DNA of 64,000 nucleotides, taken from Arbacia lixula (Eukaryota; Echinodermata; Echinoidea; Arbacioida; Arbaciidae). The DNA lies in NCBI GenBank assembly GCA_963669155.1, contig OZ022579.1, positions 17,884,978-17,948,977 of the forward strand, written 5' to 3'. The position numbers were made by a program, and so were the translations under genes. The number at the start of each line of letters is the position of its first letter. The stretch's first letter is position 1. The notes below the pieces were generated by a model that was given only the letters and a program-made list of their open reading frames with translations, was not told the DNA's origin and did not search any database. Below are positions 9,196 to 61,444 of this stretch, one piece after another.

Positions 9196-9556
9196 TTATA
9201 GGGCATACTGTACTGGGAAGGCAAAAAAGCCTTCAAAATGTAACTGTTAGCAATCTTCTTGCCAATGGTCTTAAATTCATGTATTGTCTATTTTAGAAGC
9301 TTGCTGAAAGTTATTTGCCCTCAAATGATCTACATTTGGGGTAATGAGTGATTAAATCACAAATGTTCGGCCCGAACATTTTGAGGATTTAATCATTAGT
9401 CATTAATTACTCCATATGTGGATCATTTGAGGGCAAATGACTTTCTGCAAGCTTCTAAAATGGTCAATACATGAATTTAAGACAATTTGCAAGAAGATGC
9501 TAACAATTACCTTTTGAAGGCTTTTTTGCCTTCCCAGTACAGTATATGCCCTTTAA
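9196..9556. mobile_element. Family B foldback MITE, copy 1, inserted at TTAA in tandem unit 1
   Basis: The element is 9200-9552 (353 bp). AGGGCATACTGTACTGGGAA at the left is mirrored by TTCCCAGTACAGTATATGCC at the right. The arms pair over most of their length and meet at GTTCGGCCCGAAC around 9372. It is flanked by TTAT (9196-9199) and TTAA (9553-9556). Units 2 and 3 of the host repeat read CTACTTAAATCCC at the same place (TTAA at 9808 and 10033), giving uninterrupted target sites. TTAA targets fit piggyBac- or Kolobok-type transposases. Confidence 0.9.
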
Positions 9557-10664: not shown

Positions 10665-11176
10665 ACAGCGAAAGTCCACCCCGAAGATGAGTTCATTTCA
10701 ATTATAGCAGAAAAATGAAAGCAACGTATTAGTGAAGATTTGACAAAAATCTGTTAATGGATAAGAAAGTTACTTTCTTAAATTTTGGTTTTTTTTAGAC
10801 ATCCCTTGCAAGTTCTTTTCCAATAATTTGTGTGCTGTACGATTCTATGAAATGCCCCTTTTCTGTTTTTGATGAAAGAATAAATAATTTTCATAGAGAT
10901 ATGTGTGTAAAAACATGTTTCTCGTGCTTACCCGGTGTATCAAATGCACGGGTGAAATGATATAAAGGTACATCCTTTTCAGAAAATGGACATTTGTTTT
11001 AATAGTATGCAACTTATAGCATAGTACCCTGCAAATGACATCACAAAATTAAGAATTTTGAAATTCATTACTCTGAATATTATATGATGGATTTTTATCA
11101 AACCTTCACTAATTGATTTTCCATGTTTCTGCTTTTATTAAAACCTACTTAATTTCATGGTAGACTTTCCATTTAA
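10665..11176. mobile_element. Family D foldback MITE, copy 2
   Basis: Ordered family D landmarks: GAAAGTCCACCCNGA, AGCAGAAAAATGAAAGCAAC, TTAGTGAAGATTTGACAAAA, GTTAATGGATAAGAAAGTTA, then GACATCACAAAATTAAGAAT, the inverted TTTTTATCAAACCTTCACTAA and a right end running into TTAA (11173-11176). It carries no open reading frame of its own and lies just after the exon ending at 10587. Confidence 0.7.
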
Positions 11177-11226
11177 CACTTTGTGTGCCCCTACTGCATT
11201 CCTGCGCCAATGAAGAAATACACACA

Positions 11227-15649: not shown

Positions 15650-16185
15650 TTAAAGGGTTACTAAATTAGAAAAATAAGTTCCCCCTAATCTATATACAAT
15701 TATCCACTGAAAACAAATTTCACATTTGTTTGCCGCAATAAACTCTCATTTTGACGAAAATTTGAAAAAACGCACACCTCCAGTGAAGTCAGAAATGTAA
15801 AAATGCCATAAATGCCAACGGCGTGTACGGAAGTCAACAATCCGCCATTTTCGTAATTTATTCGCAACTTTCCCCCTAACTGCGTAGTAAGGCATTATTG
15901 CATTCACCTGAATCTTGTCATTCATATTTAATGGATGGAATGCACTTTGAATCTATTAGTTGTTGCTACTCGGACAAACCTTGGACAAGCTTTGGGGTTC
16001 CCATTGGTTACATTGTTGGCATTCATGGAATTTTGACTTTTCTGAAGTCACTGGAGGTGTGCATTTTTTTTCAAATTTTCGTCAAAATGAGACTTTATTG
16101 TGGCAAATGAATGTGAAATTCGTTTTAGTGGATAATTTTACATAGATTAGTGGGAACTTATTTTTCTAATTTAGTAACCCTTTAA
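15650..16185. mobile_element. Family C foldback MITE, copy 1 (TTAA-flanked, complete)
   Basis: TTAA at 15650-15653 and 16182-16185 flanks a 528-bp element. Its inverted repeats extend about 180 bp from AGGGTTACTAAATTAG; shared blocks include ATTATCCACT, TTTGACGAAAATTTGAAAAA and CACACCTCCAGTGA. The unique centre contains CCCCCTAACTGCGTAGTAA. No coding capacity. Confidence 0.9.
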
Positions 16186-38276: not shown

Positions 38277-38649
38277 TTAAAGGGCATATACTGTACTGGG
38301 AAGGCAAAAAAGCATTCGAAATGTAATTGTTAGCAATCTTCTTGCCATTGGTCTTAAATTCATATATTGACCATTTTAGAAGCTTGCTGAAAGTTATTTG
38401 CCCTCAAATGATCTACATTTGGAGTAATGAGTGATTAAATCACAAATCCTCAAAATGTTTGGGCCGAACATTTTGAGGATTTAATCATTAATCATTAATT
38501 ACTCCATATGTGTATCATTTCAGGGCAAATAACTTTCAGCAAGCTTCTAAAATGGTCAATACATGAATTTAAGAACAATGGCATGAAGATTGATAACAAT
38601 TCCATTTTGAATGCTTTTTTGCCTTCCCAGTACAGTATATGCCCTTTAA
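38277..38649. mobile_element. Family B foldback MITE, copy 2 (TTAA-flanked, complete)
   Basis: TTAA at 38277-38280 and 38646-38649 flanks a 365-bp element with ends AGGGCATATACTGTACTGGG and CCCAGTACAGTATATGCCCT. The arms are nearly fully complementary and meet at CCTCAAAATGTTTGGGCCGA. The perfect TTAA duplication shows the target length directly. Confidence 0.95.
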
Positions 38650-41068: not shown

Positions 41069-44000
41069 GTAAGTCCATTCAAAGAGTATTGATTGTTTGG
41101 CAGAAAGATCATAGGTGATATAATCTTTTGTTACTCTTTGTTACTCTCTGTGGTAATAACATTGATTGTTCAATCTGTTAGATTATGAACAAAGATAGTG
41201 TTGCAGCCTGGAAAGCTGTAGATTAAGGTTAAGTCTAAGATGGTCTTCTTTTTCTTTGTTCATTTTCTAATGGATTGATCAATTAATCTCATCACTACGA
41301 ATAGTAACAACAAAACAATGATTAGATTAATGTAAATCCATATGTGTGATTTGGCAGTCACTTCATGGAGGTAGACTGGTGAAAGTTTGGGTAAAATTCC
41401 TGAAAGGTCAAAGATCAATGACCCTCACCCCAAATTGGCTAATTTTAAACAAACTTGATACAAGATCGATTGAGACAGATTGGTTAGATTGGAAGTCAAA
41501 GAAGTAAGAGGTCAAATGTCAATGAACATTGCTAAACTTGGCTAAACATGAAAAAACAGAATGTGATATTTTCATTTCACATAGGAATTGAATGGAACAT
41601 TCCCCACCAAACATACACATTTTCTGAGAATAAATCTAAATAGACTGTAACAAAGAGGTGGAGGCATATTTATCGACTGTGTGGCAGTCGAATTGCTCTA
41701 GTTTAGTGATAGAATCATGAATAAACTGTGCACTTGCTGGACTTGAAATTTGGGACAATTGATCAAGAGGAACTAAAAGCCTTCAGGCTGTGTGTAATTG
41801 CCTGATAGACAGAAGCTGCTACAGGGTATGTCCATCATCAAAATCAAATTGTCCGTATCAGCAGAGTGGTTTTTCTCGAATCTTTTCAATTACTTGAAAC
41901 AGAAGATGACCCAAATAGGGCACATTCCAATTTTCAATTTCACATCAGATCTTTCGAAGTACATGTAAACCCACCACCCTTTTGGAACTTATTTGCCATT
42001 ATCCTTCCTGTCACATTATAGAGAGAAATTATTCCTTTAAACCTTAAGTCATTAACACTGAAATGATCGTGCAGAGACACTACTGGTATTTTCCTGTTAG
42101 AATGGTCTAATAGTCTAAACAGAAAAAGTAATGAAGTGACACAAATTCAAAATAAAGTACAGGGGAAAGGGAAAGATAGCTTTAAAAATGAACATAGTCG
42201 CCAGAATGCTTGCAAACTGGTACTCTGGTAAGCGTTTTGAAGTAATTTCCAAGACATGTACGCGTGTATATTCTCTTTTCCAACCTTCATCTGTGTTCTG
42301 TGTGTAATAACAATGTGTTTCCCCCTCCTGTAGATGGGTGAATGGAGAATCTTTGCTCTTAGCACCATATGTCATAATTAGGTGACCTATGAATAGTTTC
42401 AGAGTTCTTGATCAGGATTTTCAAATGCTGAGAACTAAATTGAGTTATTATATCAAAGGTTTCAGCACACTTTTACCAACACATTTCTCTGGATTCTCAG
42501 TTTGTATACAACTGCACCTTAAACTTTAATTCCTTATAGGGTGCAATTAAAGGGTTCCTAAATCAGAAAACTTAGTTCCCACTTATCTATGTAAAATTAT
42601 CCACTGAAACTAATTTTTTTGCCGCAACAAAGCATCAGTTTGACAAAAATTTGGAAAAAGCACACCTCCAAGTGATGTTAGAGGGGTCAGATGCTATATA
42701 AGACTCCATTGTTTAACAGTAGACCATTTTCGTAATGTATTCACAATTTTCCCCCTAACTGCGTAGTAACACGTTATTGCATTCACCTGTATCTTGTGAT
42801 TCAGATTCAATGGATGGTAAGCACTTTGAATCTATTAGTTGTTGCTACTCAGACAAACCTCGTTCAAGCTTTGGGGTTCCCATTGGTAACGTATTGTTAG
42901 AATGGTATGAATAAAATATTTTATTCACGCCGTTGGCATTTATGGCATTTTGACTTTTCTGACGTCACTGGAGGTGTGCGTTTTTTCAAATTTTCGTCAA
43001 AATGAGACTTAAGTGCGGCAAACAAATATGAAATTCGTTTTACTGGATGATTTTACATAGATAAGTAGGAACTTATTTTCTAATTTAGTAACCCTTTAAA
43101 GGGCATATACTGTACTGGGAAGGCAAAAAAGCCTTCAAACGGTAATCGTTAACAATCTTCTTGCCAATGGTCTTAAATTCATGTATTGTCTATTTTAGAT
43201 GCTTGCTGAAAGTTATCTGCCCTCATATGATTCACATTTGGAGTAATGAGCAATTAGTAATTAAATCCTCAAAATGTTCAGGCCGAACATTTTGAGGATT
43301 TGTGATTCAATCAGTAATTACTCCAAATGTAGATCAGTTGAGGGCAGATAACTTTCAGCAAGCATCTAAAATAGACAATACATGAATTTAAGACCATTGG
43401 CAAGAAGATTGCTAACAATTACGTTTTTAAAGGCTTTTTTGCCTTCCCAGAACAGTATACGCCCTTTGAGCCACACTCCTCTGTTTACTGAATCTCAAAG
43501 ACAAATATTAACATCCTCACTGGACCAGGATTCATAAAGCCCGAAAATCTAAAACAAGGCAACAGATTTCCTATGATTATATGATTGAATATCATACAAT
43601 GAAAGAACATGAAGTCAGATATATGCAGAACCTTATTAACACAATTCACGGTGAGTTTTCTGCTTGTATATAACTCCACCTGTCATTGTGGTCTGGCTAC
43701 CCTTGCCACACCATCATCTGGTGTTGATTGTGGCCGCCCAGAACATGGCATCATGCTGTGTTGTAGCTACAATACCAGCAGGACGACTGGTTCTGAGGAG
43801 CGCAATTCTAAGAAATGTGTATACAGGGAACAATTCCTGTACCCCTAGTCTAGAAATGGGAATCCCTCTGCCCGCTAGTTATATTCATCAGCCCCTCCCC
43901 CATCCCCTTCCCTCTTGATATAAACTTATCAAGATTTGATTAAAGAATGGGTAATTAAATCTCCCCCCCCCCCGTTACAAAATTCAAGTAATTTATATTC

Positions 44001-50000: not shown

Positions 50001-53000
50001 GTTTGCTATTTTGTAACCTACCTAGATCATAAAATATAGTAGTAATTGCCATGGAAGCAGCCAATGATTTCTAGGCTTTGTAGTTGTCATGGTAATTACG
50101 TCAAAAGCTACAGTGCATGCAATATGGCCCAGGAGTTACTTGATGGTGTGTCTCAAGTCACCTTCAAAATGTGACTTGCTGCACTGATCACTTTTTTTTA
50201 CATTCCATTCTTTCTCTATCTTTCTTTCCTTTTTAGTTTAGGAAAAAGTAAACAGAAAAATAATTTGAGATAAACTTTTACCGTCATTCTGCCTCTTGTG
50301 GATTATTTGTTTGATGGTCATACATGTTATCTGGCTCAGCCAAGTCAAGTTTTCATTTGGGAATTAGCTAGAAAATGTACAGTTTAAATTGTGTTTGTTA
50401 CTGGAAAGTGGCATAGATTAAGGAACCTTTATCAAAGGAGTGCCGTTTTGTGTCCCATTCTCATTTGATATTAGGATAACAGAATGAAACAATCTTAAAT
50501 TGATAGAGATCATTGACATGGAATGAAATCTGGGCCCTGTTGCATAAAACTTACCATTGATAGTAACTCTGCCATCGATGGTAACTACCATGGTAACATT
50601 GCTCGATAGCCAATCAAATGCAAGGTTTCATAACAGTTGCTATTGATGGCAAATTTACCATCAAAGGTAAGTTTTATGCAATGGGACCCTGGTCCCATGA
50701 TAACTGCAGGAACATTCTGCCATGTTTATAGACAATAATCATGTCCACTACAAATCCTGTCTTTTAAGGTCAGTCGACCTCAGATACCATGTTTCTCTCT
50801 CTTTAAGTAGATGAGTGACAAGCGCTCGCTCAGCTTCTCCATCGCAGTCAGGTCTCGCTACGAGGAATGCGAGACAGAGTGTGATGGCGCCCCCAGTGGC
50901 AGCTTCAAGAAGGACGACTACCGCAACCTGACCTACCGGCAGTGCTTCCTCAAGATGGTTGCCGACGAGATTCTGACCAACGAGACGGACAGGAATTACT
51001 TCCGGGCCAATTTCTCCTGGTGTCTTCCACCGATCCTCATCTTCCTCATCACCTGGGTTGAGGTGAGGATGTTTCGTCTGCATTCTCCCATGCATTTTTC
51101 ACTGCTCCATGCTTTTATATGAACAATAGAATCTCTGGGTGTTTCACCAAGCTGTTCGTGATGAACTACTGGTGATCCCTTCTTGTGCTAAATCACATTC
51201 TCAATGATTTTGATTCCCACCAGCGTAAGTTCAAATCTGATGTTTATAAATGAAAATTCTGACTTATTGTAAGCAATTGTCTGAATACAAAGCGTATGAT
51301 TTGTCCAAAAAAAATTAGGATTGTTTGAAGTTAACTCCCAATATGTTAAAACAGGAACACAGTGTGGTATCGCTTTTGCTCAAGAAGGGATCACTAGTCG
51401 TTCGTAAAGTCGTTCGTAGCTTACAAACAGCTTGGTGAAACACCCCCCCCCCCCCCCCTGGCACCCTCTGACCTGACCATGAAGCAGAGAAAAGATGTAT
51501 GCATGACCATGTCCGCACGATAAAGCCTACTTGAATTTAGAATCAAGCTAAAAGTACCAATATGCACATATTGAGCAAATTTAGCCTCTGACCTTGTCTC
51601 TTCAAAACTCCCTCTATTCGGTCATGCATGGACTATTCATAATGTTAAGGGTATCAAATGAAAATAAAGAGAACTGTTTAGACTTGCTTGCTGTGTCACT
51701 GTATACTTTATGTTATGAAACAATGATGGGATACTTTGCTATGAAAATCCATTGTTTCTGGGATCTGTGAGTATGTCTTGTCCCAGAATGCATCACTGGC
51801 ACTTAAAGAGGTCAGCGAAAGCTTAATCAATGAGAAGTTAACCTTAATAAGCCAGCAATATAAATAATTCCTCTCTATGCAGAGAGAGAGAGAAAGAGAG
51901 AGAGAGAGGGGGGGAGATAAATTGACCGGTGACTGTCCGCTCACTATCTGACCTCTGAATAGTATTCTGTGGTTGCAGCATTTTCTTCTAGTCAATTTGT
52001 TCAGGTCCATCACACTGGTGCCAGCCTTAATGAGGCATGCAGACCCAAATGTAGGGCATTAGGCTGCTACCAATTTAAAGGTGGGATATCCCTTGAGCAG
52101 ACGTAAAATACAATGTAAAGACCCACAGCATATGCAAGGAAATACCATCTAATAACTCCCTTAAGGCCCCCCTTGCATAAAACTTACCATTAATGGTAAC
52201 TCTATCATCAGTGGTAACTACCATGGTAACATTGCTCAACAACCAATCAACCTCAAGGTTTCCATTGAAGTTGCCATTGATAGCAAAGTTACTATTAATG
52301 GTAAGTTTTATGCAACAGGGCCCAGATTATGTAGTTTTCTTTACCGGCTCTTTACTGAGCCCATATACAGTATATGCGGTCTGGCTTTTCTCTTCTCAGA
52401 TACTGAGCAGCTTGAATATCACGAAACCTCTCATAAGGACATTAGGTAACAGACTATGAATAAACATAAAATTCCTTTTGTCCAGTATTGTCAATGTTTT
52501 TGTGATTCTGTATAAATAATACTCCTTCCCTCTACACCCCTGCCCCCTCTCTCCTCCCCACCCACCTCCTCCTTCCATAGCTAGGTTTCTACATTGGGGT
52601 GACGATGAATGTGACGAGGTCGGACGTAAACGCAACATTGAGGGCAGCAGACATCTGGACGGGGCCCCTCCCCAAGCACAGCGCATTGGTGTTTGATCCC
52701 AACAAGAGGATTCAGTTCTGGAGATTTTTTTCATACATACTTTTACATGGCGGGTGCGTATGTTCTTAGATCTGTCATTATTTCCATTCATAAGGCACTA
52801 TGTGCTATGTGTCAACATGGACTTTGCTCCGTTTTGAAAGTGTATTTATTTAATCCTTTCAATTGAATCTTAGTTTTACTGACATTTCCACAATCCAAAA
52901 GTCACAAACTACAGTCATCCCATAGACAATTTCTTGCAATGTTTTCTACACAAGGGATGTATTAACTTTTACAGTAACTGATCAGGTTTTAATGAACCTC

Positions 53001-56000
53001 ATGACACTCAGACCAAAGAGTGTATTGTCATTTTCCATCTTCATCAAGCAGTATCAACAATAGAAAGATGTGATATCATAAAAAGGAATTTTGGTATTTT
53101 GGGGGTTTTGAATAGCTCTGAAATTGGCTGCTCATTCAGCTTCAGAAAATGAGAAATTTGAGGGTAGAGTACCAAAGTGTGATGTCATATGAGGATGTTG
53201 TTGAAACAACTGGTTCTAAACAATGGGTGGAGAACAAACATCAGTGATTATAGGGGGGACTCTCATTTGGAATGCCCGACACCCTCCCACGGGACAATGT
53301 CAGACCAGTGAAACTCTCACTTGAGCAATGTGTTTAGAACCAGCAACCTGCATAGCAATGGATATGACAACACCATTCCAGTACTCCATGGAGAAGGGTT
53401 TTCTATAATGAGGGTTTGAAAACAACTCCCAAATTACTCATATGAATAAATAGAGCCAACTTCATTTGAAGGTGATATTCATAGAAAATCCCTAAATATG
53501 AAGATATTCATCTACAGAAAGTTTATAAGACATGCAATGAGCTTGGATGACATTCAAACAATATATCACTTCTGAAAAAGCATTAGGGTGAAAACAATCA
53601 CCCTATCCTCTGGGATAAATTTACCCTACTGTCATCCAAAATGGCCTTTAGGTCTGACGTAAGAAAAGGAAGGCGTTATTGTGCATCACACACGCCAATC
53701 CGCAGCTTCTTTTCTGCCAGAAGCATCATGTATTATTGATGAAACTGTGATGGCAGTTGCTAGTAGATTAACAGATGTGATACACAATGGTCATTGTGAA
53801 CATTTGTGTGTAGATTGAAGTTAGTCTCTATAGCTGCATGAAGCATATCCCGGCTGTGACGTACACATAAAGCCACTTTCCCTCAGGCGATTTTGTAGGT
53901 CAGGAGAGAGTCAATTTAGTGAAATTTGATTTACATAAAACACAAAACTGAACACTTTAATTGCATGTTAGCTGCATAAATTTCTTTAATAACTCATTCA
54001 ATTATAAAATAAACTCTATTTATTTGATTTTATTTCCGATAAGTATCACCTTTAAAGCTCATCTTTCAGGCACGGCTTATTCACTGATTTATGTATGTCT
54101 CCCTCTCTTGGTCTTGCAGCATTGAACATATAGTCTTCAACTTCTCAGTGCAGATGTTGCTGGGTGTTCCCTTAGAGCTGGTTCACGGGACACGGAGAAT
54201 TGGTACCCTCTACCTCATTAGCATAGCCGCTGGTAAGATATACCCCCAAAATGGAGAAAAGATTGAATTTTTAACAAAGATTTCTCTATTTTTCTACTGT
54301 GAAACCTGTCTATAGTGGCCACCAAAGGGAAACAAAAATTGTGGCCTTTATAGACAGGTGGCTTGCTATAGACAGGTTCTTTAACACATGATCTCTCTCC
54401 AGGGGAATTATTTTAGTGACCACTATAGACAGGTAAGCTGCTATAGACAGGTGGCCACTAAGACAGGTTTGACTGTATTTATGAACTCCATCTTGATAAT
54501 TTGTTCTAGTCCAAACGCAGGAGATGGATTTCATAATTAGGAACCTTATGGGCAATTCCACAGGTTTGGTTAACTCTTAGTGTGCCATAGCGCTGCAAAC
54601 ACGCTATTGTTACGGTGCTTTGTACACGCTAGCGCGCTATCGATTGGCTGCTTTCTTCACGCGAGCGCGCTATCGTTACAGTGCCAAAAGCGTGCTTGCA
54701 CGCATTCGTAATAGCAGTTATTGTTTATGCTCATTGCACATGTACTGAATGCTTCGCACGCCCTATTGTTCATCGCATCGCGTGCACCAGATAATCGGCT
54801 TTCGGTCACGCGTTTTTTTTTACACCTTTCACATTGGACTTTCTCGAGTAATTTAGCGTTTTGTATTTCATATCGTATCATCAATATGCCTCCCCCTCGC
54901 AAGAAACGGACTTGCTTCATCGACCCTGATGTGGTGCGACAGCTTGTGATGGCTGACTCGGATTCTGAAGCCCCGCAAGAGAGCGACAGTGACCATGGAG
55001 ATAGTGACAGTGACGCTGATTTTGACATCGGTCCCACACGCAAGGTTTCGTGCAGGGAAGAGCCTGCTGCTGATGTTGATGCAGACACGTTTGATGCAGC
55101 TGTTCCAGACTTCATGCATGATTCGGACAGCGAGATTGAGGATGAGCATGATGATCGGCCAGAGCCTCAAGTTGAACCGGCACAACACCAAGGAGATCAC
55201 TGGATCAACTTGGAGGAGGGTGATTGGGCCCCCTCCTGGCAGAACTCTTACGACGAGGAACCAAAACTGTTGTTCGACATAAACAACCTCAAACCGGTAG
55301 ATTTTTTCTACCGGTTTTTCCCAGAGGATTTGTTCACGACCATTGCCAACGAGACGAACCGGTATGCGAAGCAGACGATTGAGCGACTTGGTGTTCTGCA
55401 GCAACATTCCAGACTTAGCAAATGGACAGAGACAACACCTGATGAAATCAAAGCGTTCACCGCACTGCAGATGGCAATGGGGCTTGTCACGAAACCAGCC
55501 ATCCACATGTACTGGGAGGAGAGCTGGCTGATCGGAACTCCGGGCTTCAGCACAGTGATGAGCCGAAACAGGTTAGAGTCTTTGACTTATTGATGCTTTA
55601 TTTATTTGGATATACATTTATGATTGTTTACTTACAACATTCTCATGATCTTGCATGAAAGCAAGAGAAAAACATTCTGGAAATCTATTTTTACATGTTT
55701 TATGGATGAGATATTTTCTAACGTAGATAATATAGACAAAAATGTTACTTACATGATATGTTATCATTATGATAGCATCAGACAGTTGGTTCAAATTCTA
55801 TTATGTTTTTATTTGTTATTTGTCATTAATTGATTGATGAATTTATGTATTTTTTTTCTTTGTGTGTGTGTGGGGGGGGGGTTAAGCTCATATATAATAG
55901 ATTATAATTTGTAATAGCTTTGTGCATGTTATGCTCAGTTCTGGTAGATAAACAATTATAAACTAACCTATTTCTCTGCTTCTTTTCATTTTTTTTTCTG

Positions 56001-59000
56001 CAGGTACCAGCTGCTCAACTCTCTTCTGCACTTTGTGGACAATGAAGACAGAGTACCGAAAGGTCAACCTGGCTACAATGTCCTCTTCAAAGTCCAGCCC
56101 ATCATCGACCGTGTCCGCCCAACATACCAGGAGGGATTTGCACCCGGCCGTGACCTTTCCATCGACGAGAGCCTGGCTGCGTTCAAAGGAAGGCTCTCAT
56201 TCAAGCAGTACCTTCCAATGAAGCCAACCAAGTGGGGTATCAAGTTCTGGGTTGTGACGGATGCGTCGTGCGGCTTTTGCTTGGATTGGAGGGTGTACAC
56301 CGGCAAGAACGAGCAACAGGACCGAGGAGGAGATGGGCTGTCGACGCATGTGGTCAAGGAGCTGACTCGGCCATATGCAGGATCTGGCCGCCATGTCTAC
56401 ATGGACAACTTTTATAGTTCCCCTGAGCTGTTCGAGTTTCTACATGACTCGAATCTTGGCGCGTGCGGCACAGTGAGACTGAACAGGAGAGGCATACCAC
56501 CCGACATGCGAGAGGCATCTCAGCAAGCGAGGAAGGGCGAGGCACCCAAGTTCTTTAGGAAAGGCGACCTGCTGGGTGTCACGTGGCACGACACCAAGAG
56601 GGTTAGTGTGCTGTCAACGATACATGGAACTGGCTGCACACAGAAGGATATCCGCGACAAGCGATCGGCAACAGGCGTTCGACGGGTGCGAAAACCAATA
56701 GCGGTGGAGGGGTACAACCAGGCCATGGGAGGCGTCGACCTACTAGACCAGAGGATGTCTTATTACAAGTACCCACACAAGCACCTCAAGTGGTACATGG
56801 TAGTGTACCACTTCATGATGGAAGTCGCACTAGTGAACGCCTTCCTTGCCTACAGACTTGCCACAAAGGACGACAAGCGTAGCACCCGTAGTTTCCGAAT
56901 GAGTGTCATCAACAGCCTCCTGGACAATTACACCAAGAACTCCACTGCTGGACGACCCAGGACATTGCGGGAGTCTAACAGAGACAACCGCCTGGCACCG
57001 AGGCTCGTTGGGGACCACTTCGTTGATCAAAGGAAGTGGAAGGGACAGAGCAGGCACTACCCTGACTGCGTGGTCTGCTCGAAGAAGGTCGACGGGAAGA
57101 GAGTGACAACGTCTTTCTTCTGCGAAACCTGCAAGCTGCCGATGTGCTTGAAACCTTGTTTCAGACTTTTTCACCGCCGTTAGATTGTGGACAATGAATA
57201 GTATGACATAGACTGTAGCATAAGAGCTTAGCACATATATGTTCAGCAAAATGAGTTTCATCATGTATATTTGATTGCAGTAACTAAAGAAAGGATTTAT
57301 TTTCTTATTTTCCTTATTTATTATTTATTTATTGGAGAAACTTATATTGCTCTGTGCCTGATCATTGAGAAACATATTCTTCAAAGCTTAGATGAGCAGT
57401 AGGACTTTAGTTTACAGATTATTGTAAGCAATGAAGTGAGGCTATTCTAAATATTTATTTTGTTTTCATGTTACATTTATAATGGTTTTGTATTTTGTAT
57501 GGTTATTTATTTTGAACAATATCAGTAATGTCTTGCCAAATATTTATTGATAACTCATCCATGCATGCTTTCACAACTATACCATGAATTGTCTACTGCA
57601 ATTTTTTTTTATAACCAGTACCTGCTGTTTCTAAGTGTAATAATATCATGTTAAGTTTATAGACTTGTGCAATTTGAGCTACATTTTGCAATTTAAATGC
57701 CTCATTTATCTTGCTTATAAGGGTTGCTTCTAAATTATGTTTGCCAATATCTGACCCACTGTTCTAGTGCAATATTTTGATTATGTAGTTTTGACATAAT
57801 GTGTTAGACTTAGAATGTGATTTTGTATTCATGCGGCATTGGGCCTTTATATGAACTTGACATTTGCCAATATTACTGTGTTTGATGGTTTTACTATGAT
57901 TTTTATTACTTTTGTTTTTTAATGATTTTAATTATGTTAGGAAGTGACTATTAGGAAGTGGACTAAACTGGTAATCTAATCTAAGATGTACATTATGATT
58001 TGTTGTTATGGCATGCTGCATTACCTTGAACATTTCCCCAAAATATTTACTTAGGACTTGCCATCTTGGCAATTTTTTCAGCACATACTAAATACAACAT
58101 TTGCTTTCTTTTGCCAATGTTAAATGTTAAATTTATAGAAATAAATGCATCCGTGACTCACTTTATGAATATTTTCGTCTGAGTACGTCTTTATGATTTG
58201 AAATGTACAAAGTGTTTGTGTATGTTTTTTTTTTTTGCTTGTATATTTGTGTTTGCATACATGGAAAAATCTGTGTGAATTATGTTGATGGTGATAGTAC
58301 TGGCTATGGTGATGACGATGACAATGATAATGCTGATGACAATGATGATGATAGTGATGATGAAACGACCGTAATGATGACAATGAAAATGATAAAGGCT
58401 AAAGAGAGATGTGATGACAGTGGCTTTGATTTTTGGTGGTGATGGTGATATTCCTCTTTTCTTTTCTGCAGATGGTTCGGGATAAACTGATTACTTAGTA
58501 AGGCTTTTGAAATGAATGATTGCAATAACATCTGTTTTGTATGTCAGTGCTCATCTAAAATTATGTTGCATTTTATAGCACTTGGTTACAAGTGTGAATA
58601 AGTTCATATACCTGGGGAAGCTTCGGGAGGGGGGGGGGGGTGAAGGGGGTGTGGCGGCAGGTATCCTCACGAGTCACAATTGCCGCAAGTCATAACGTCC
58701 AATTTGCTACGTTTATATTTATTCATGTAAAACAAAATTTGGATCACTTTTCAAAATCGCTCAACATATAGGAAGGTAGACGCTATGACTAGCGGCGCTT
58801 ATTATTAGCAAGGGAATCCTGTTGGGGGTGGGGAAGGGGGTAATTTTAAGAAAGAAAAAAAAAACATAAGCGGAATAAACACACACACACGAAAAAAGAA
58901 AACATTTAAGGCGTGCCCCCAATCACTATTCTGTTTGGAACAGACTGGTACACCAAAGTAATTATATGTAGGCCTATATGAATCTAAAGTGCACATGAAA

Positions 59001-61444
59001 ATAACAAGCCACATTTTGTTTTTGTCAAATACTTTCATCAGTTACTGATCCTCTGCAAAGCATGAACAAGGCATGAACACTGGGTTTTTTTTCAACATTT
59101 GTACATTTTATTTCTCGTCATCTTACAATAACATTGATGTTTCTTTCCTAGCCTGTATTATAGATATTATGTAACCGTAGAAAGACTAATCCAAAGCACT
59201 ATGCACAGAAAATATCTGCTGCATATAAAAGAACAAAACACAGGATGTACCTTAGCACTCCCGCATGCAGATAAGCCTTGGAACAAAGCACAGGATGTAC
59301 ATTGTATATCCACTCGTTTCTACTGCAAAGAGCTCATTATGTAGTTAAGGCATATAGCCTATTTGCGAGGTCCAAGGGGGAGATATTTCCCACAAAATGC
59401 CAAATGCATGTTATCATATAAATATATAACACTATAAGCATGATCTGAAGATAAAGAAGCATCTATGTTCAACTAAAACATCACAAAAAATGGCTCAAAA
59501 ACAACGATTCCAACTTAAGGTTTATTATTAGTTTGTAATAAAAAAGCAAAATAACATCTCCATACAAATTTGATATCATAATGAAGCTGATAAAATTTTC
59601 TACAACTTTCATGTACAAGTTTTTCTGTAAAAGTGTATAGGTTTCAAAATATAGTGGCTCAAAAATGCCTACACAGAAAATAAAGCTCAACTAAGTAGAC
59701 CCCAAAATAAACTTGGCACAGGGCGGATTTGGGGCTGGCACAATGGGGATTAGCGGCGTGGCACTGGGCTCTATTCATTGGGGCAGGCTAAGAGTTAAAG
59801 TCGTGTAACATGAGTAACCAAAGCTTCTTTATTTGATTGAAAAAGAAGTTTCTGTGCTGAGGATATGATTGCGTGTCATGGAAATGTGGACTGTTTGCTT
59901 CCTTAATAATTATTTACATAATTTCTGCAAAACTATGACAGAATATAAAATAAAGAAGCTTTGGTTACTCATGTTACACATCTTTAACCAAACCTGTGGA
60001 ATTGCCCTTATTTTATGAAATATGTGTTATTATTCTGGTTCATAGGATCACAGAGTAACATTTTGATTGCGTTACCATAACACAATTCTGATGGTCTGCA
60101 TTGTAAGTAGAATGGTATACATTTGTACATAACACCACTAAGTTAACCATTTTGTAATGTATCCTGGATTATGATATGGCAGTTGTTATAAGAAATATTT
60201 AGAGTATTCCTCCTGATGTCTTCCCCACCCAGGTTCCATGGGCACGTCTGTTTTTGACCGGAGTAGCTACCTAGTAGGGGCGTCGGCTGGATCCTACGCC
60301 TTACTGTCAGCCCACCTTGCCAATGTGGCCCTGGTGAGTTGACTCTCGACTCAAAGTATCGAGTTAGCAACTATAAGAAACTATAAATTGCCTAATTATT
60401 AGGCAGTATTTACCCCTTATGCTGCAGATTAAATGCTGCTCTTTTGGATTCATATGTATTACTTGTGCAAAAATGAACTAGTGGTGCATAAATTTGTGGA
60501 GATTTGTCTGTTTGTAATGTCATGCATTTTGTGAATAACGCACAGCAGGTTCATGTTAATGTTTCACTTATTTGTCATGTGTATAATGTTTTCATTTTCT
60601 TCCTGAAACTCATGCTAGCCCTCCTGGCTATGTGCTAGAATTTGCTTTTGATTAATAACATAAAACCATGAAAGTTCTTATAACCCAAGTTTATGTTGAC
60701 TTCATTTCATTGTTTTTTCAGCATTTTCCAGATTCGAAATTAAGTCCACAAAGAATAGCAGTTGTTATATTATGTGGTAAGTAATAACTTTCATTTCTTT
60801 AGATATAGATATGTGGAACTTCATTGATAATATCAGAAAAATATGTACTTATTAATTAATACTTTTATTGATGATACAAAGGCCAATGATTTCCAATTCA
60901 GGTATTAAAAAAGCTTTTCAAGAAAGTTCAAAGAAAATTCTAGGTCATAACATCATTCAATGATTAATCGGTTTCAGCTCATGTGACCTATGACCTTTCA
61001 TCAAAAACCTTGCTCATTGGAAGGCCATCGATTCTAAATTATAAATTAATTGCTACTTGAGAATTGATTTTCTTTTCTTCCAAGAAAATGATAAAATCTA
61101 GGTCATGAAATCATTGGAAGATGAATATGTTTGAGTGCTCTTTTCGTGGTAATATGTAATTATATATATTGTATTGTGTTTTTCCCTTCCCAGTAAGTGC
61201 AGACTTTGGGCTGGCTGTCTACCGGCGCTACTCCAACCTTCAGACCGAGGCCTCCTTCGTGGCCCACCTGATGGGGGTCACCATCGGCCTGACGATAGGC
61301 CTCTTCATCCTCAGAAACTATGAGCAGCGGCTGCACGAGCGCATCGGCATGTGGCTGGCCATGGTGGCCTATATCATCTTCATCCTCTTTGTGGTCTTCT
61401 GGAACATTTTCTACAAGCCTGCCCAGGCGGTTCCGCCGGTATAG
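40940..61444 (+). CDS. RHBDL3: Rhomboid-related protein with EF-hands (RHBDL1/3 type intramembrane protease), 8 exons
   Basis: Intramembrane serine protease that cuts transmembrane substrates within the bilayer. Exons: 40940-41068, 49694-49858, 50811-51062, 52581-52753, 54120-54232, 60233-60333, 60722-60776, 61194-61444. All introns are GT-AG and all joins keep frame, giving 1239 nt and 412 residues (human RHBDL3 has about 404). Two EF-hand-like loops (45-56, 83-94), then a first membrane segment (about 168-190), the FWRFF motif of loop 1, HIVFN (243-247; the oxyanion His/Asn pair as in bacterial GlpG), GASAG with catalytic Ser295, AHLMG with catalytic His354, and a final membrane segment near the C-terminus. 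The peptides DPHKREVL and LRNYEQRL and the end of the protein resemble vertebrate RHBDL3; the YLVGAS segment is more like RHBDL2. ATG context CCACCATGC, with an upstream in-frame TGA at 40895. The animal-wide orthology within RHBDL1/2/3 is inference. Confidence 0.92.
42547..43099. mobile_element. Family C foldback MITE, copy 2 (TTAA-flanked)
   Basis: TTAA at 42547-42550 and 43096-43099 flanks 545 bp with ends AGGGTTCCTAAATCAG and TAATTTAGTAACCCT and long complementary arms. The centre matches copy 1 (CCCCCTAACTGCGTAGTAA, GGGGTTCCCATTGGT). Its right TTAA is also the left TTAA of the family B copy that follows. Confidence 0.92.
43096..43469. mobile_element. Family B foldback MITE, copy 3, abutting family C copy 2
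   Basis: Element 43100-43465 (366 bp), ends AGGGCATATACTGTACTGGG and CCCAGAACAGTATACGCCCT, centre GTTCAGGCCGAAC. Left flank TTAA (shared), right flank TTGA, one substitution from TTAA. Confidence 0.92.
44750..45215. repeat. Dispersed repeat M, copy 2
   Basis: Starts with a short poly-A/G stretch, then AACAAAAGTCATGAAACTCA, AATCAGCAGTATACCCTAA, CTTCAGGAAAACTGAAAAAC, and ends TTTTAAAAGGGCTGGCATGT. It carries about 150 bp not present in the copy at 37725. Non-coding. Confidence 0.6.
45270..45690. repeat. Dispersed repeat L, copy 2 (uninterrupted reference copy)
   Basis: Contains TCAGATACTGAGCA, AAATTCCTTATAGGGTGCAA, TTAA (45378-45381), GCCACACCTCT, ACATCCTAACTGGACCAGGG and the later block CCAGAAGCATCATGAATTAT-GGCAGTTGCTAGT. 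Fragments of the first and last parts recur at 52385-52490 and 53690-53810 in introns 3 and 4. Confidence 0.7.
49149..49240. mobile_element. Family D MITE, left-end fragment
   Basis: TTAAAGGGATAGTTCACCCT (49149-49168), then GTTGGTTTCA and AAGCAGAAACATGAAAG, as in the complete copy at 16195, but the remainder is missing. Confidence 0.7.
49415..49586. mobile_element. Family E foldback MITE, copy 1 (intron 1)
   Basis: GGGCCCTGTTGCATAAAAAC at the left, CCATGAATGGTAAGTTTTAT at the right, with inner ACCATTGATG and CCATGGTAGTTA blocks repeated in both orientations. It ends 108 bp before exon 2. The right terminus has drifted (ATCCAAGTGGGTCC). Confidence 0.8.
49694..49858 (+). CDS. Rhomboid exon 2 (paired EF-hand module)
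   Basis: 55 codons, phase 0 at both ends, with acceptor GTGTAG|TTT and donor ATT|GTGAGT. The first loop, DVDGNGTISMEA, has Asp/Asp/Asn at positions 1, 3 and 5 and Gly6 but Ala at position 12. The second, EDNTGGVISYQE, has Glu at position 12 but a poor 1-3-5 set. Both calcium sites are therefore imperfect, as in vertebrate RHBDL proteins. DPHKREVL lies between them. Confidence 0.93.
50532..50689. mobile_element. Family E foldback MITE, copy 2 (intron 2)
   Basis: GGGCCCTGTTGCATAAAACT and its mirror AGTTTTATGCAATGGGACC-type right end, with TTACCATTGATAGTAACT and ACTACCATGGTAAC inside. Ends 121 bp before exon 3. Confidence 0.9.
50811..51062 (+). CDS. Rhomboid exon 3 (linker and start of TM1)
   Basis: 84 codons, phase 0 at both ends. 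Starts MSDKRSLSFS, equivalent to the M-x-x-KRS-x-SF segment of vertebrate RHBDL1/3. It then gives a linker with an extra Cys pair (EECETEC) and ends in the hydrophobic CLPPILIFLITWVE, where Cys-Pro-Pro marks the start of the first transmembrane helix. Confidence 0.93.
51137..51450. mobile_element. Family F foldback MITE, copy 2 (intron 3)
   Basis: GGGTGTTTCACCAAGCTGTT and mirror AACAGCTTGGTGAAACACCC (with a C-run at 51445-51459). GTGATCCCTTCTTGTGCT and the imperfect mirror CTCAAGAAGGGATCAC form the inner stem. About 120 bp longer in the centre than the copy at 27157. Confidence 0.85.
51881..51915. repeat. (AG)n microsatellite in intron 3
   Basis: About fifteen AG units with one interruption, ending in a G-run. 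Confidence 0.9.
52165..52323. mobile_element. Family E foldback MITE, copy 3 (intron 3)
   Basis: GGCCCCCCTTGCATAAAACT and mirror AGTTTTATGCAACAGGGCCC. Inner TTACCATTAATGGTAACT is itself a perfect small palindrome, and ACTACCATGGTAAC matches copies 2 and 4. Confidence 0.9.
52581..52753 (+). CDS. Rhomboid exon 4 (loop 1 and FWRFF)
   Basis: 57 codons plus two bases. It completes TM1 (LGFYIGVTM), has two N-glycosylation-type sites in the loop (NVT, NAT), and ends FWRFFSYILLHG, the conserved W-R loop-1 motif and start of TM2. Donor GG|GTGCGT; the split Gly codon is completed by exon 5. Confidence 0.92.
54120..54232 (+). CDS. Rhomboid exon 5 (H-x-x-x-N oxyanion segment)
   Basis: Encodes IEHIVFNFSVQMLL, GVPLELVHG and IGTLYLISIAA. 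His243 and Asn247 correspond to GlpG His150 and Asn154. Acceptor CTTGCAG, donor TG|GTAAGA. The long intron that follows holds the piggyBac element. Confidence 0.93.
54297..54480. repeat. TATAGACAGGT foldback/tandem repeat in intron 5
   Basis: TATAGACAGGT occurs five times on the + strand (about 54350, 54368, 54425, 54443 and in AAGACAGGT at 54462), and ACCTGTCTATAGTGGCCAC opens the block in inverse orientation. The outer ends GTGAAACCTGTCTATAGTGG and CCACTAAGACAGGTTTGAC are mirrors. A compact foldback element. Confidence 0.7.
54886..55571 (+). CDS. piggyBac transposase exon 1
   Basis: Residues 1-228 plus two bases of codon 229. Contains the basic start, the acidic region, and the beginning of the transposase fold (DFFYRFFPEDLFTTIANETN and the ALQMAMGL segment). 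Donor AACAG|GTTAGA at 55572. Confidence 0.9.
54886..57183 (+). CDS. piggyBac transposase (DDE_Tnp_1_7 family), two exons
   Basis: Cut-and-paste transposase for TTAA targets. Exons 54886-55571 and 56004-57183 join across a 432-bp GT-AG intron (AACAG|GTTAGA ... TTTCTGCAG|GTACC) inside an Arg codon, giving 621 residues with no frameshift or stop. Start MPPPRKKRTCFIDP at 54886; an in-frame extension upstream has no ATG with conserved features. The N-terminus is acidic (DSDSEAPQESDSDHGDSDSD). Catalytic Asp315 (WVVTDAS), Asp363 (YMDNFYSS) and Asp474 (GGVDLLDQ) correspond to the piggyBac DDD triad. The Cys-rich C-terminus has C584-x2-C587, C602-x2-C605, C610-x3-C614 and His619, the zinc-binding end-recognition domain. 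Higher GC than the intron around it. Confidence 0.93.
56004..57183 (+). CDS. piggyBac transposase exon 2
   Basis: From the split Arg codon and YQLLNSLLHFVDN through the DDD triad to the terminal Cys-rich domain and TAG at 57181-57183. The DLSIDESLAAFKGR motif, conserved in piggyBac transposases, lies at residues 279-292. Confidence 0.93.
57184..59793 (+). other. piggyBac 3' non-coding region
   Basis: A long AT-rich 3' UTR with AATAAA at 58140-58145 as the likely polyadenylation signal. Then a (GAT)-type imperfect microsatellite (58290-58430), a G-run (58630-58640), a short repeated ACAGGATGTAC segment (59240 and 59289), and the right-end TGGCAC subterminal repeats. No second gene seen. Confidence 0.6.
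58140..58145 (+). terminator. Polyadenylation signal candidate, piggyBac transposase
   Basis: AATAAA about 960 bp downstream of the transposase stop, followed by a T-rich stretch near 58225. Position fits; no transcript evidence. Confidence 0.4.
60233..60333 (+). CDS. Rhomboid exon 6 (catalytic serine)
   Basis: Ser295 sits in YLVGASAGSYAL, followed by LSAHLANVAL. The canonical GxSG is written G-A-S-A-G, where vertebrate proteins usually have GASGG or GSSGG. Acceptor CCCACCCAG, donor CTG|GTGAGT. Confidence 0.95.
60722..60776 (+). CDS. Rhomboid exon 7 (short linker exon)
   Basis: Only 55 nt: HFPDSKLSPQRIAVVILC plus one base. Acceptor TTTTTTCAG, donor GTGG|TAAGT-type (G|GTAAGT at 60777). It starts the membrane segment between the serine and histidine helices, and both joins are in phase. 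Confidence 0.88.
61194..61444 (+). CDS. Rhomboid exon 8 (catalytic histidine, stop)
   Basis: SADFGLAVYRRY, then FVAHLMGVTIGLTIGL with catalytic His354 and the Gly-rich helix, LRNYEQRL, a last hydrophobic helix (YIIFILFVVFWNIF) and the C-terminus AQAVPPV followed by TAG at 61442-61444. Noticeably GC-rich. Confidence 0.95.

Follow-up and report, generated by a model that had tools for sequence, protein, structure and literature searches.

A piggyBac-type element is nested inside a smaller MITE in an intron of a rhomboid-family gene of Arbacia lixula. The arrangement lies in a 64,000-nucleotide stretch of DNA (the window, C4:17884978-17948977, of an assembly of 607 Mb in 590 contigs), in which the ends of both elements, the target duplications of both, the nesting itself and an open transposase frame with its catalytic residues can be read directly. 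Very probably, the MITE inserted first and the piggyBac later into its TTAA, within the rhomboid-gene intron. According to this order of events, a 233-bp MITE would have inserted with a 4-bp duplication (TTAT), and the 5,221-bp piggyBac would then have entered the TTAA of the MITE left arm by TTAA-specific cut-and-paste, duplicating that site; integration of piggyBac at TTAA with duplication of the TTAA is described in the available part of PMC7351741.

The junctions and the host MITE

The nested structure comprises the following features:

54546..54549, unstranded: left target site duplication of the MITE, TTAT (a 4-bp duplication is a feature of the family, exact in 24 of 40 other copies)
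54550..54573, + strand: left end of the MITE, TTAA included (sequence read and genome copies)
54570..54573, unstranded: left TTAA of the piggyBac (sequence read)
54574..59794, + strand: piggyBac element, 5,221 bp (domains, junction and genome copies)
59795..59798, unstranded: right TTAA of the piggyBac (sequence read)
59799..60007, + strand: remainder of the MITE, 209 bp, with the rest of the left arm, the centre and the right arm (sequence and genome copies)
60008..60011, unstranded: right target site duplication of the MITE, TTAT (sequence read)

A scan of possible breakpoints (left 54553-54599, right 54600-59989) gave six sequence-equivalent best joins, 54573|59799 among them, which agree at 60/64 positions with the arm as deduced from the intact right one. 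The first-pass annotation had removed 54574-59797. The join scan agrees with its left end and moves its right end by one base, as cutting at 59797 leaves an extra A and the correct stretch to remove is 54574-59798. The restored MITE measures 233 bp rather than the 234 bp reported earlier, with a single TTAA at the site, as had been described. Within the first 63 positions, its two arms disagree at three (27, 28 and 61), so that the earlier count of two mismatches in 60 bp is borne out. The description of the element as a near-perfect palindrome holds for the 63-bp arms but is too strong for the whole, since the central 107 bp, from position 64 inward, are not palindromic.

A genome query with the MITE returned at least 41 near full-length matches including the element itself (best 40 of 518 candidates scored). 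Forty other copies, from 39 loci, were fetched; the palindromes match in both orientations, giving 55 matches, which were reduced to 40 by discarding 15 reverse-orientation duplicates according to their alignment scores. The copies examined are 225-238 bp long, and the 40 others share 89.3-96.1% identity with the restored element (median 94.4%). Positions 17-34 of the restored MITE equal the majority sequence of these independent copies and, on the junction side where the two arms of this MITE differ, position 27 is T in 40/40 copies and position 28 is C in 33/40, so that independent copies, in addition to the palindrome, confirm the join. TTAA is present at the insertion site in 34 of the 40 copies and at the corresponding right-arm site in 31. 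Copies lacking this TTAA had been named beforehand as grounds for abandoning the nesting; six of the 40 do lack it, and the nesting stands.

The exact 4-bp duplication in 24 of the 40 copies, with no copy matching over 5 to 9 bases, likewise upholds the earlier reading of TTAT as the target duplication of the MITE. Genome-wide, a 26-base arm pattern with at most two mismatches was found 356 times in forward and 353 times in reverse orientation (709 in total), while a reversed control gave 0. Short, with inverted termini, a target duplication and many similar copies, the MITE is, to judge from these features, a non-autonomous DNA transposon of a large family. The MITE arm had no exact match in viral_contigs, a viral collection, so that this result says little.

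The duplications of the family are variable and A/T-rich, and include ATAT (three copies), TTAA (two copies), AGAA, CTTT, TGGA and ATTG, among others. In this respect the MITE is like the Sola2-type elements, whose 4-bp duplications are described as variable and rich in A/T (PMC3627910), for instance ATAT, AAAT and ATTT, although some of the MITE duplications (TGGA, AGCA) are not A/T-only. The resemblance to the Sola2 type is one of duplications, and any superfamily assignment of the MITE would be tentative. A different possibility is that the MITE is a TTAA-type element, related to Kolobok or piggyBac, with an altered TTAT site. Its GGG...CCC ends do agree with 5'-RR...YY-3', the pattern of Kolobok ends (PMC9587614), and other palindromes of the window have TTAA-AGGG ends. 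Nevertheless, TTAA stands on both sides in only 2/40 copies and exact duplications include AGAA, CTTT, TGGA and ATTG, which makes such an origin highly unlikely. A Kolobok-like, TTAA-specific origin was rejected on the same two counts, the 2/40 and the variable duplications.

The piggyBac element and its relatives in the genome

The transposase region of the element is organised as follows:

54886..55571, + strand: transposase exon 1 (open frame; protein 99-100% identical in two other long copies)
55572..56003, + strand: predicted transposase intron, GT-AG, phase 2 (prediction from sequence)
56004..57183, + strand: transposase exon 2, with the catalytic DDD region and the zinc finger (PF13843, PF13842, piggyBat and piggyBac chains)
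57184..59794, + strand: 3' non-coding stretch of the piggyBac, 2.6 kb long (diverged by 0.5% and 1.3% from the other two long copies)

Joined, the two exons make 621 codons with no stop. PF13843 (DDE_Tnp_1_7) matches exon 2 (56035-57183) at 3.2e-59 and exon 1 at 3.1e-21, and the same stretch of exon 2 matches PF13842 (zf-Tnp_2), the C-terminal zinc finger, at 2.8e-6. Against solved chains, 56035-57183 aligns with piggyBat at 6.6e-39 and with piggyBac at 7.4e-34. The motifs SIDES, MDNFYSS and GGVDLLDQ, which we take to hold the catalytic aspartates, are all present and aligned with piggyBat, as is the C-terminal finger. The element therefore shares with the piggyBac superfamily, as represented by T. 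ni piggyBac and piggyBat, the catalytic domain, the DDD residues, the C-terminal zinc finger, a short TIR and the TTAA duplication. It differs from these relatives in its predicted intron and in the 2.6-kb 3' non-coding part and, unlike the usual piggyBac, it starts with CTCTTAG instead of CCC.

With regard to the ends, the following features were read:

54574..54586, + strand: left TIR, CTCTTAGTGTGCC (11/13 match to the right end)
59782..59794, - strand: right TIR, paired with the left TIR
54582..54587, + strand: subterminal GTGCCA, left copy 1 (motif count)
54681..54686, + strand: subterminal GTGCCA, left copy 2 (motif count)
59714..59719, - strand: subterminal GTGCCA, right copy 3 (motif count)
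59736..59741, - strand: subterminal GTGCCA, right copy 2 (motif count)
59759..59764, - strand: subterminal GTGCCA, right copy 1 (motif count)

In the portion available, the survey PMC10813416 gives lengths of 1.23-9.51 kb for animal piggyBacs, 503-675 aa for most intact transposases and TIRs of 4-24 bp, and takes as intact those elements with duplications, TIRs and a transposase of at least 500 aa. By these criteria the element is, on its sequence, an intact piggyBac, with length, transposase and TIR within the survey ranges. Its terminal triplet is CTC and not the typical CCC; since the same survey also reports CACTA among the conserved 5' motifs, the CCC start is treated here as typical, not defining.

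GTGCCA occurs twice in the left 130 bp and three times in the right 130 bp, always pointing inward. The motif was chosen after looking; five copies of any 6-mer were reached in 3/5000 shuffles, and such a 6-mer appeared in 1/5000 draws of random window pairs (those containing N being skipped). The longer TGTGCCA (3 copies) is weaker, as some 7-mer reaches three copies in 77/5000 shuffles. These repeats are putative subterminal binding sites of the transposase.

The query with the whole element (best 40 of 1005 candidates scored) revealed three long copies among the scored candidates, one of them interrupted. The second full-length copy, on C1, is 97% identical and 5,279 bp long, with the same ends and TTAA on both sides. 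The third, on C10, is approximately 99% identical and split by 7.7 kb, its outer ends being the same and accompanied by TTAA. The interruption of this copy (L049/L050, C10:1592402-1605549) falls in exon 2, and the insert of about 7.7 kb has TGTTA...TAACA ends and a GTGGA 5-bp duplication; judged from these ends, it has the look of an LTR retrotransposon.

In addition, the genome holds many short, widespread derivatives of about 823 bp, made of the first ~300 and the last ~555 positions of the long element. Of 35 that were fetched, 30 have the same ends and TTAA on both sides, and in five (L065, L082, L083, L084 and L085) either one or both of the sites are altered or an end is damaged. Both piggyBac ends, the TTAA duplication and the nesting in the MITE, all claimed by the first-pass annotation, are therefore supported by independent genome copies. 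The contrary finding that it had named, copies elsewhere with different ends, was looked for and did not overturn the claim, the 30 derivatives and the C1 copy sharing the ends. The exact 300|4667 break, in BLAST pieces, is found in 25/35 derivatives. They are 79-87% identical to the ends of the long element and 75.7-99.5% identical to each other (median 90.5%); the derivatives are therefore, as far as these identities tell, an amplified sister lineage rather than deletions that arose recently from this copy.

An assembly artefact would be another way to obtain such a nesting, and the window does contain 200 N elsewhere, while both elements are repeats. However, exact TTAA copies stand at the junctions, independent copies confirm the ends, and the right flank occurs once, so that this explanation has a practically negligible probability. 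The right flank has its single match in the assembly, with no second match to represent an empty allele.

In the C1 copy the transposase frame is open across both exons; in the C10 copy it is open in exon 1 and in the part of exon 2 that follows the insert. The coding sequence of the window copy differs from that of C1 by 10 synonymous and 8 non-synonymous changes (pN/pS 0.22) and from the C10 pieces by 3 synonymous and 1 non-synonymous change (pN/pS 0.09), with a non-coding divergence of 1.3-1.6% and 0.5-0.6%, respectively. This pattern, which rests on few changes, would fit recent mobility under selection, and we infer that the transposase may be active now or was so recently. The earlier label "autonomous" holds as regards the open transposase and the shared ends; autonomy itself is deduced from these and not from transposition.

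Many other piggyBac lineages are present in the genome, where at least 109 matches were obtained (best 108 of 214 candidates scored), all but three of them 26-75% identical and many with stops. A decayed transposase fragment (L051, G000:C8:19665529-19666185) has 89% DNA identity to exon 2 and several stops. No transposase relative was confirmed in viral_contigs or genome_contigs, collections that are viral and prokaryotic, so that this says little.

The order of insertion

The first-pass annotation had put the MITE into the intron first and the piggyBac second. That the piggyBac entered the MITE stands; that the MITE was already in the intron when the piggyBac arrived is likely, not proven. 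The nesting alone cannot discriminate this order from one in which the piggyBac entered the MITE elsewhere and the resulting 5.46-kb composite then moved into the intron by means of the MITE ends, as either course would leave an identical outer TTAT duplication. Nevertheless, no second composite was found, given that neither the 100-base flanks of the two other long copies nor the 60-base flanks of the 35 derivatives contain a MITE match. Furthermore, the composite is some 20 times longer than the MITE copies of 225-238 bp, and the move of a MITE with a 5.2-kb cargo would be unlikely. The flanks and the size of the cargo both favour a MITE that was already in the intron, and a transfer of the composite appears very unlikely.

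The long piggyBac copies have 97-99% mutual identity, against a median of 94.4% between the MITE copies and the present MITE and of 90.5% among the derivatives. Age is a soft argument, which helps only a little: because the derivatives stand at a median of 90.5% to each other, the wider piggyBac family is not younger than the MITE family.

The host gene and the recurrence of nesting

The exons of the host gene on either side of the nested elements are:

54118..54232, + strand: upstream host rhomboid exon, 3' end, with a donor at 54233 (PF01694, 6.4e-8, within 54088-54315)
60233..60333, + strand: downstream host exon, probably rhomboid (PF01694, E 0.006, 60235-60336, below the curated cut-off)

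The phase 1 end of the upstream exon is matched by the start of the downstream exon. Further downstream, an open stretch at 61160-61444 (+) matches the rhomboid model at 0.014 and an amino-acid permease model at 0.0051, both below the cut-offs, and the open stretch at 50811-51122 (+) had no match in the domain search.

The transposase is in the same sense as the rhomboid-family gene. As described in the consulted portion of PMC3459987, PGBD3 lies in intron 5 of CSB, and the present case is like CSB-PGBD3 in having a piggyBac in an intron with its transposase in the sense of the host gene. In contrast to CSB-PGBD3, the acceptor of transposase exon 2 does not keep the frame of the upstream host exon here; a CSB-PGBD3-like fusion via exon 2 was rejected on this ground, and fusion is not indicated. 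The piggyBac might otherwise serve as an alternative terminal exon, in a rhomboid-transposase fusion from the phase 1 host exon to an AG before exon 1. Only two in-frame AGs are found there in the open stretch (54790 and 54856), with 60-65% pyrimidines upstream, and use of either would seem extremely unlikely.

Two derivatives, L070 and L078, also sit in TTAA sites of other repeats, of which uninterrupted relatives are present within the window (11060-11200 and 54310-54450). As the empty site can be read in the same way for these two (2/35), the event does not stand out here; the nesting is an ordinary one, and the element and the MITE belong to known kinds. The repeat that received L078 at its TTAA is of the CTATAGACAGGT type, with an uninterrupted relative (54310-54450) just to the left of the nested element. 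Two further derivatives (L056 and L057) have on their left side a flank that matches the palindromic family at 38277-38649, at its TTAA end.

Palindromes are frequent in the window. The long ones at 9196-9556, 15650-16185, 38277-38649 and 43096-43467 have AGGG/CCCT ends beside TTAA and are Kolobok-like by their ends, with the exceptions that 9196-9556 has TTAT on the left and that the right end of 43096-43467 is without TTAA. At 42547-43099 and 43096-43467, two different palindromes with TTAA-AGGG ends abut, with one TTAA in common.

These results do not change views on how piggyBac works. They define the exact ends of a recently mobile piggyBac lineage, with three long copies and a widespread derivative of about 823 bp, and of a large family of MITEs that duplicate 4 bp, and they place the two in a relative order; they are useful for the repeat annotation of the genome and for the choice of natural transposon ends to assay.
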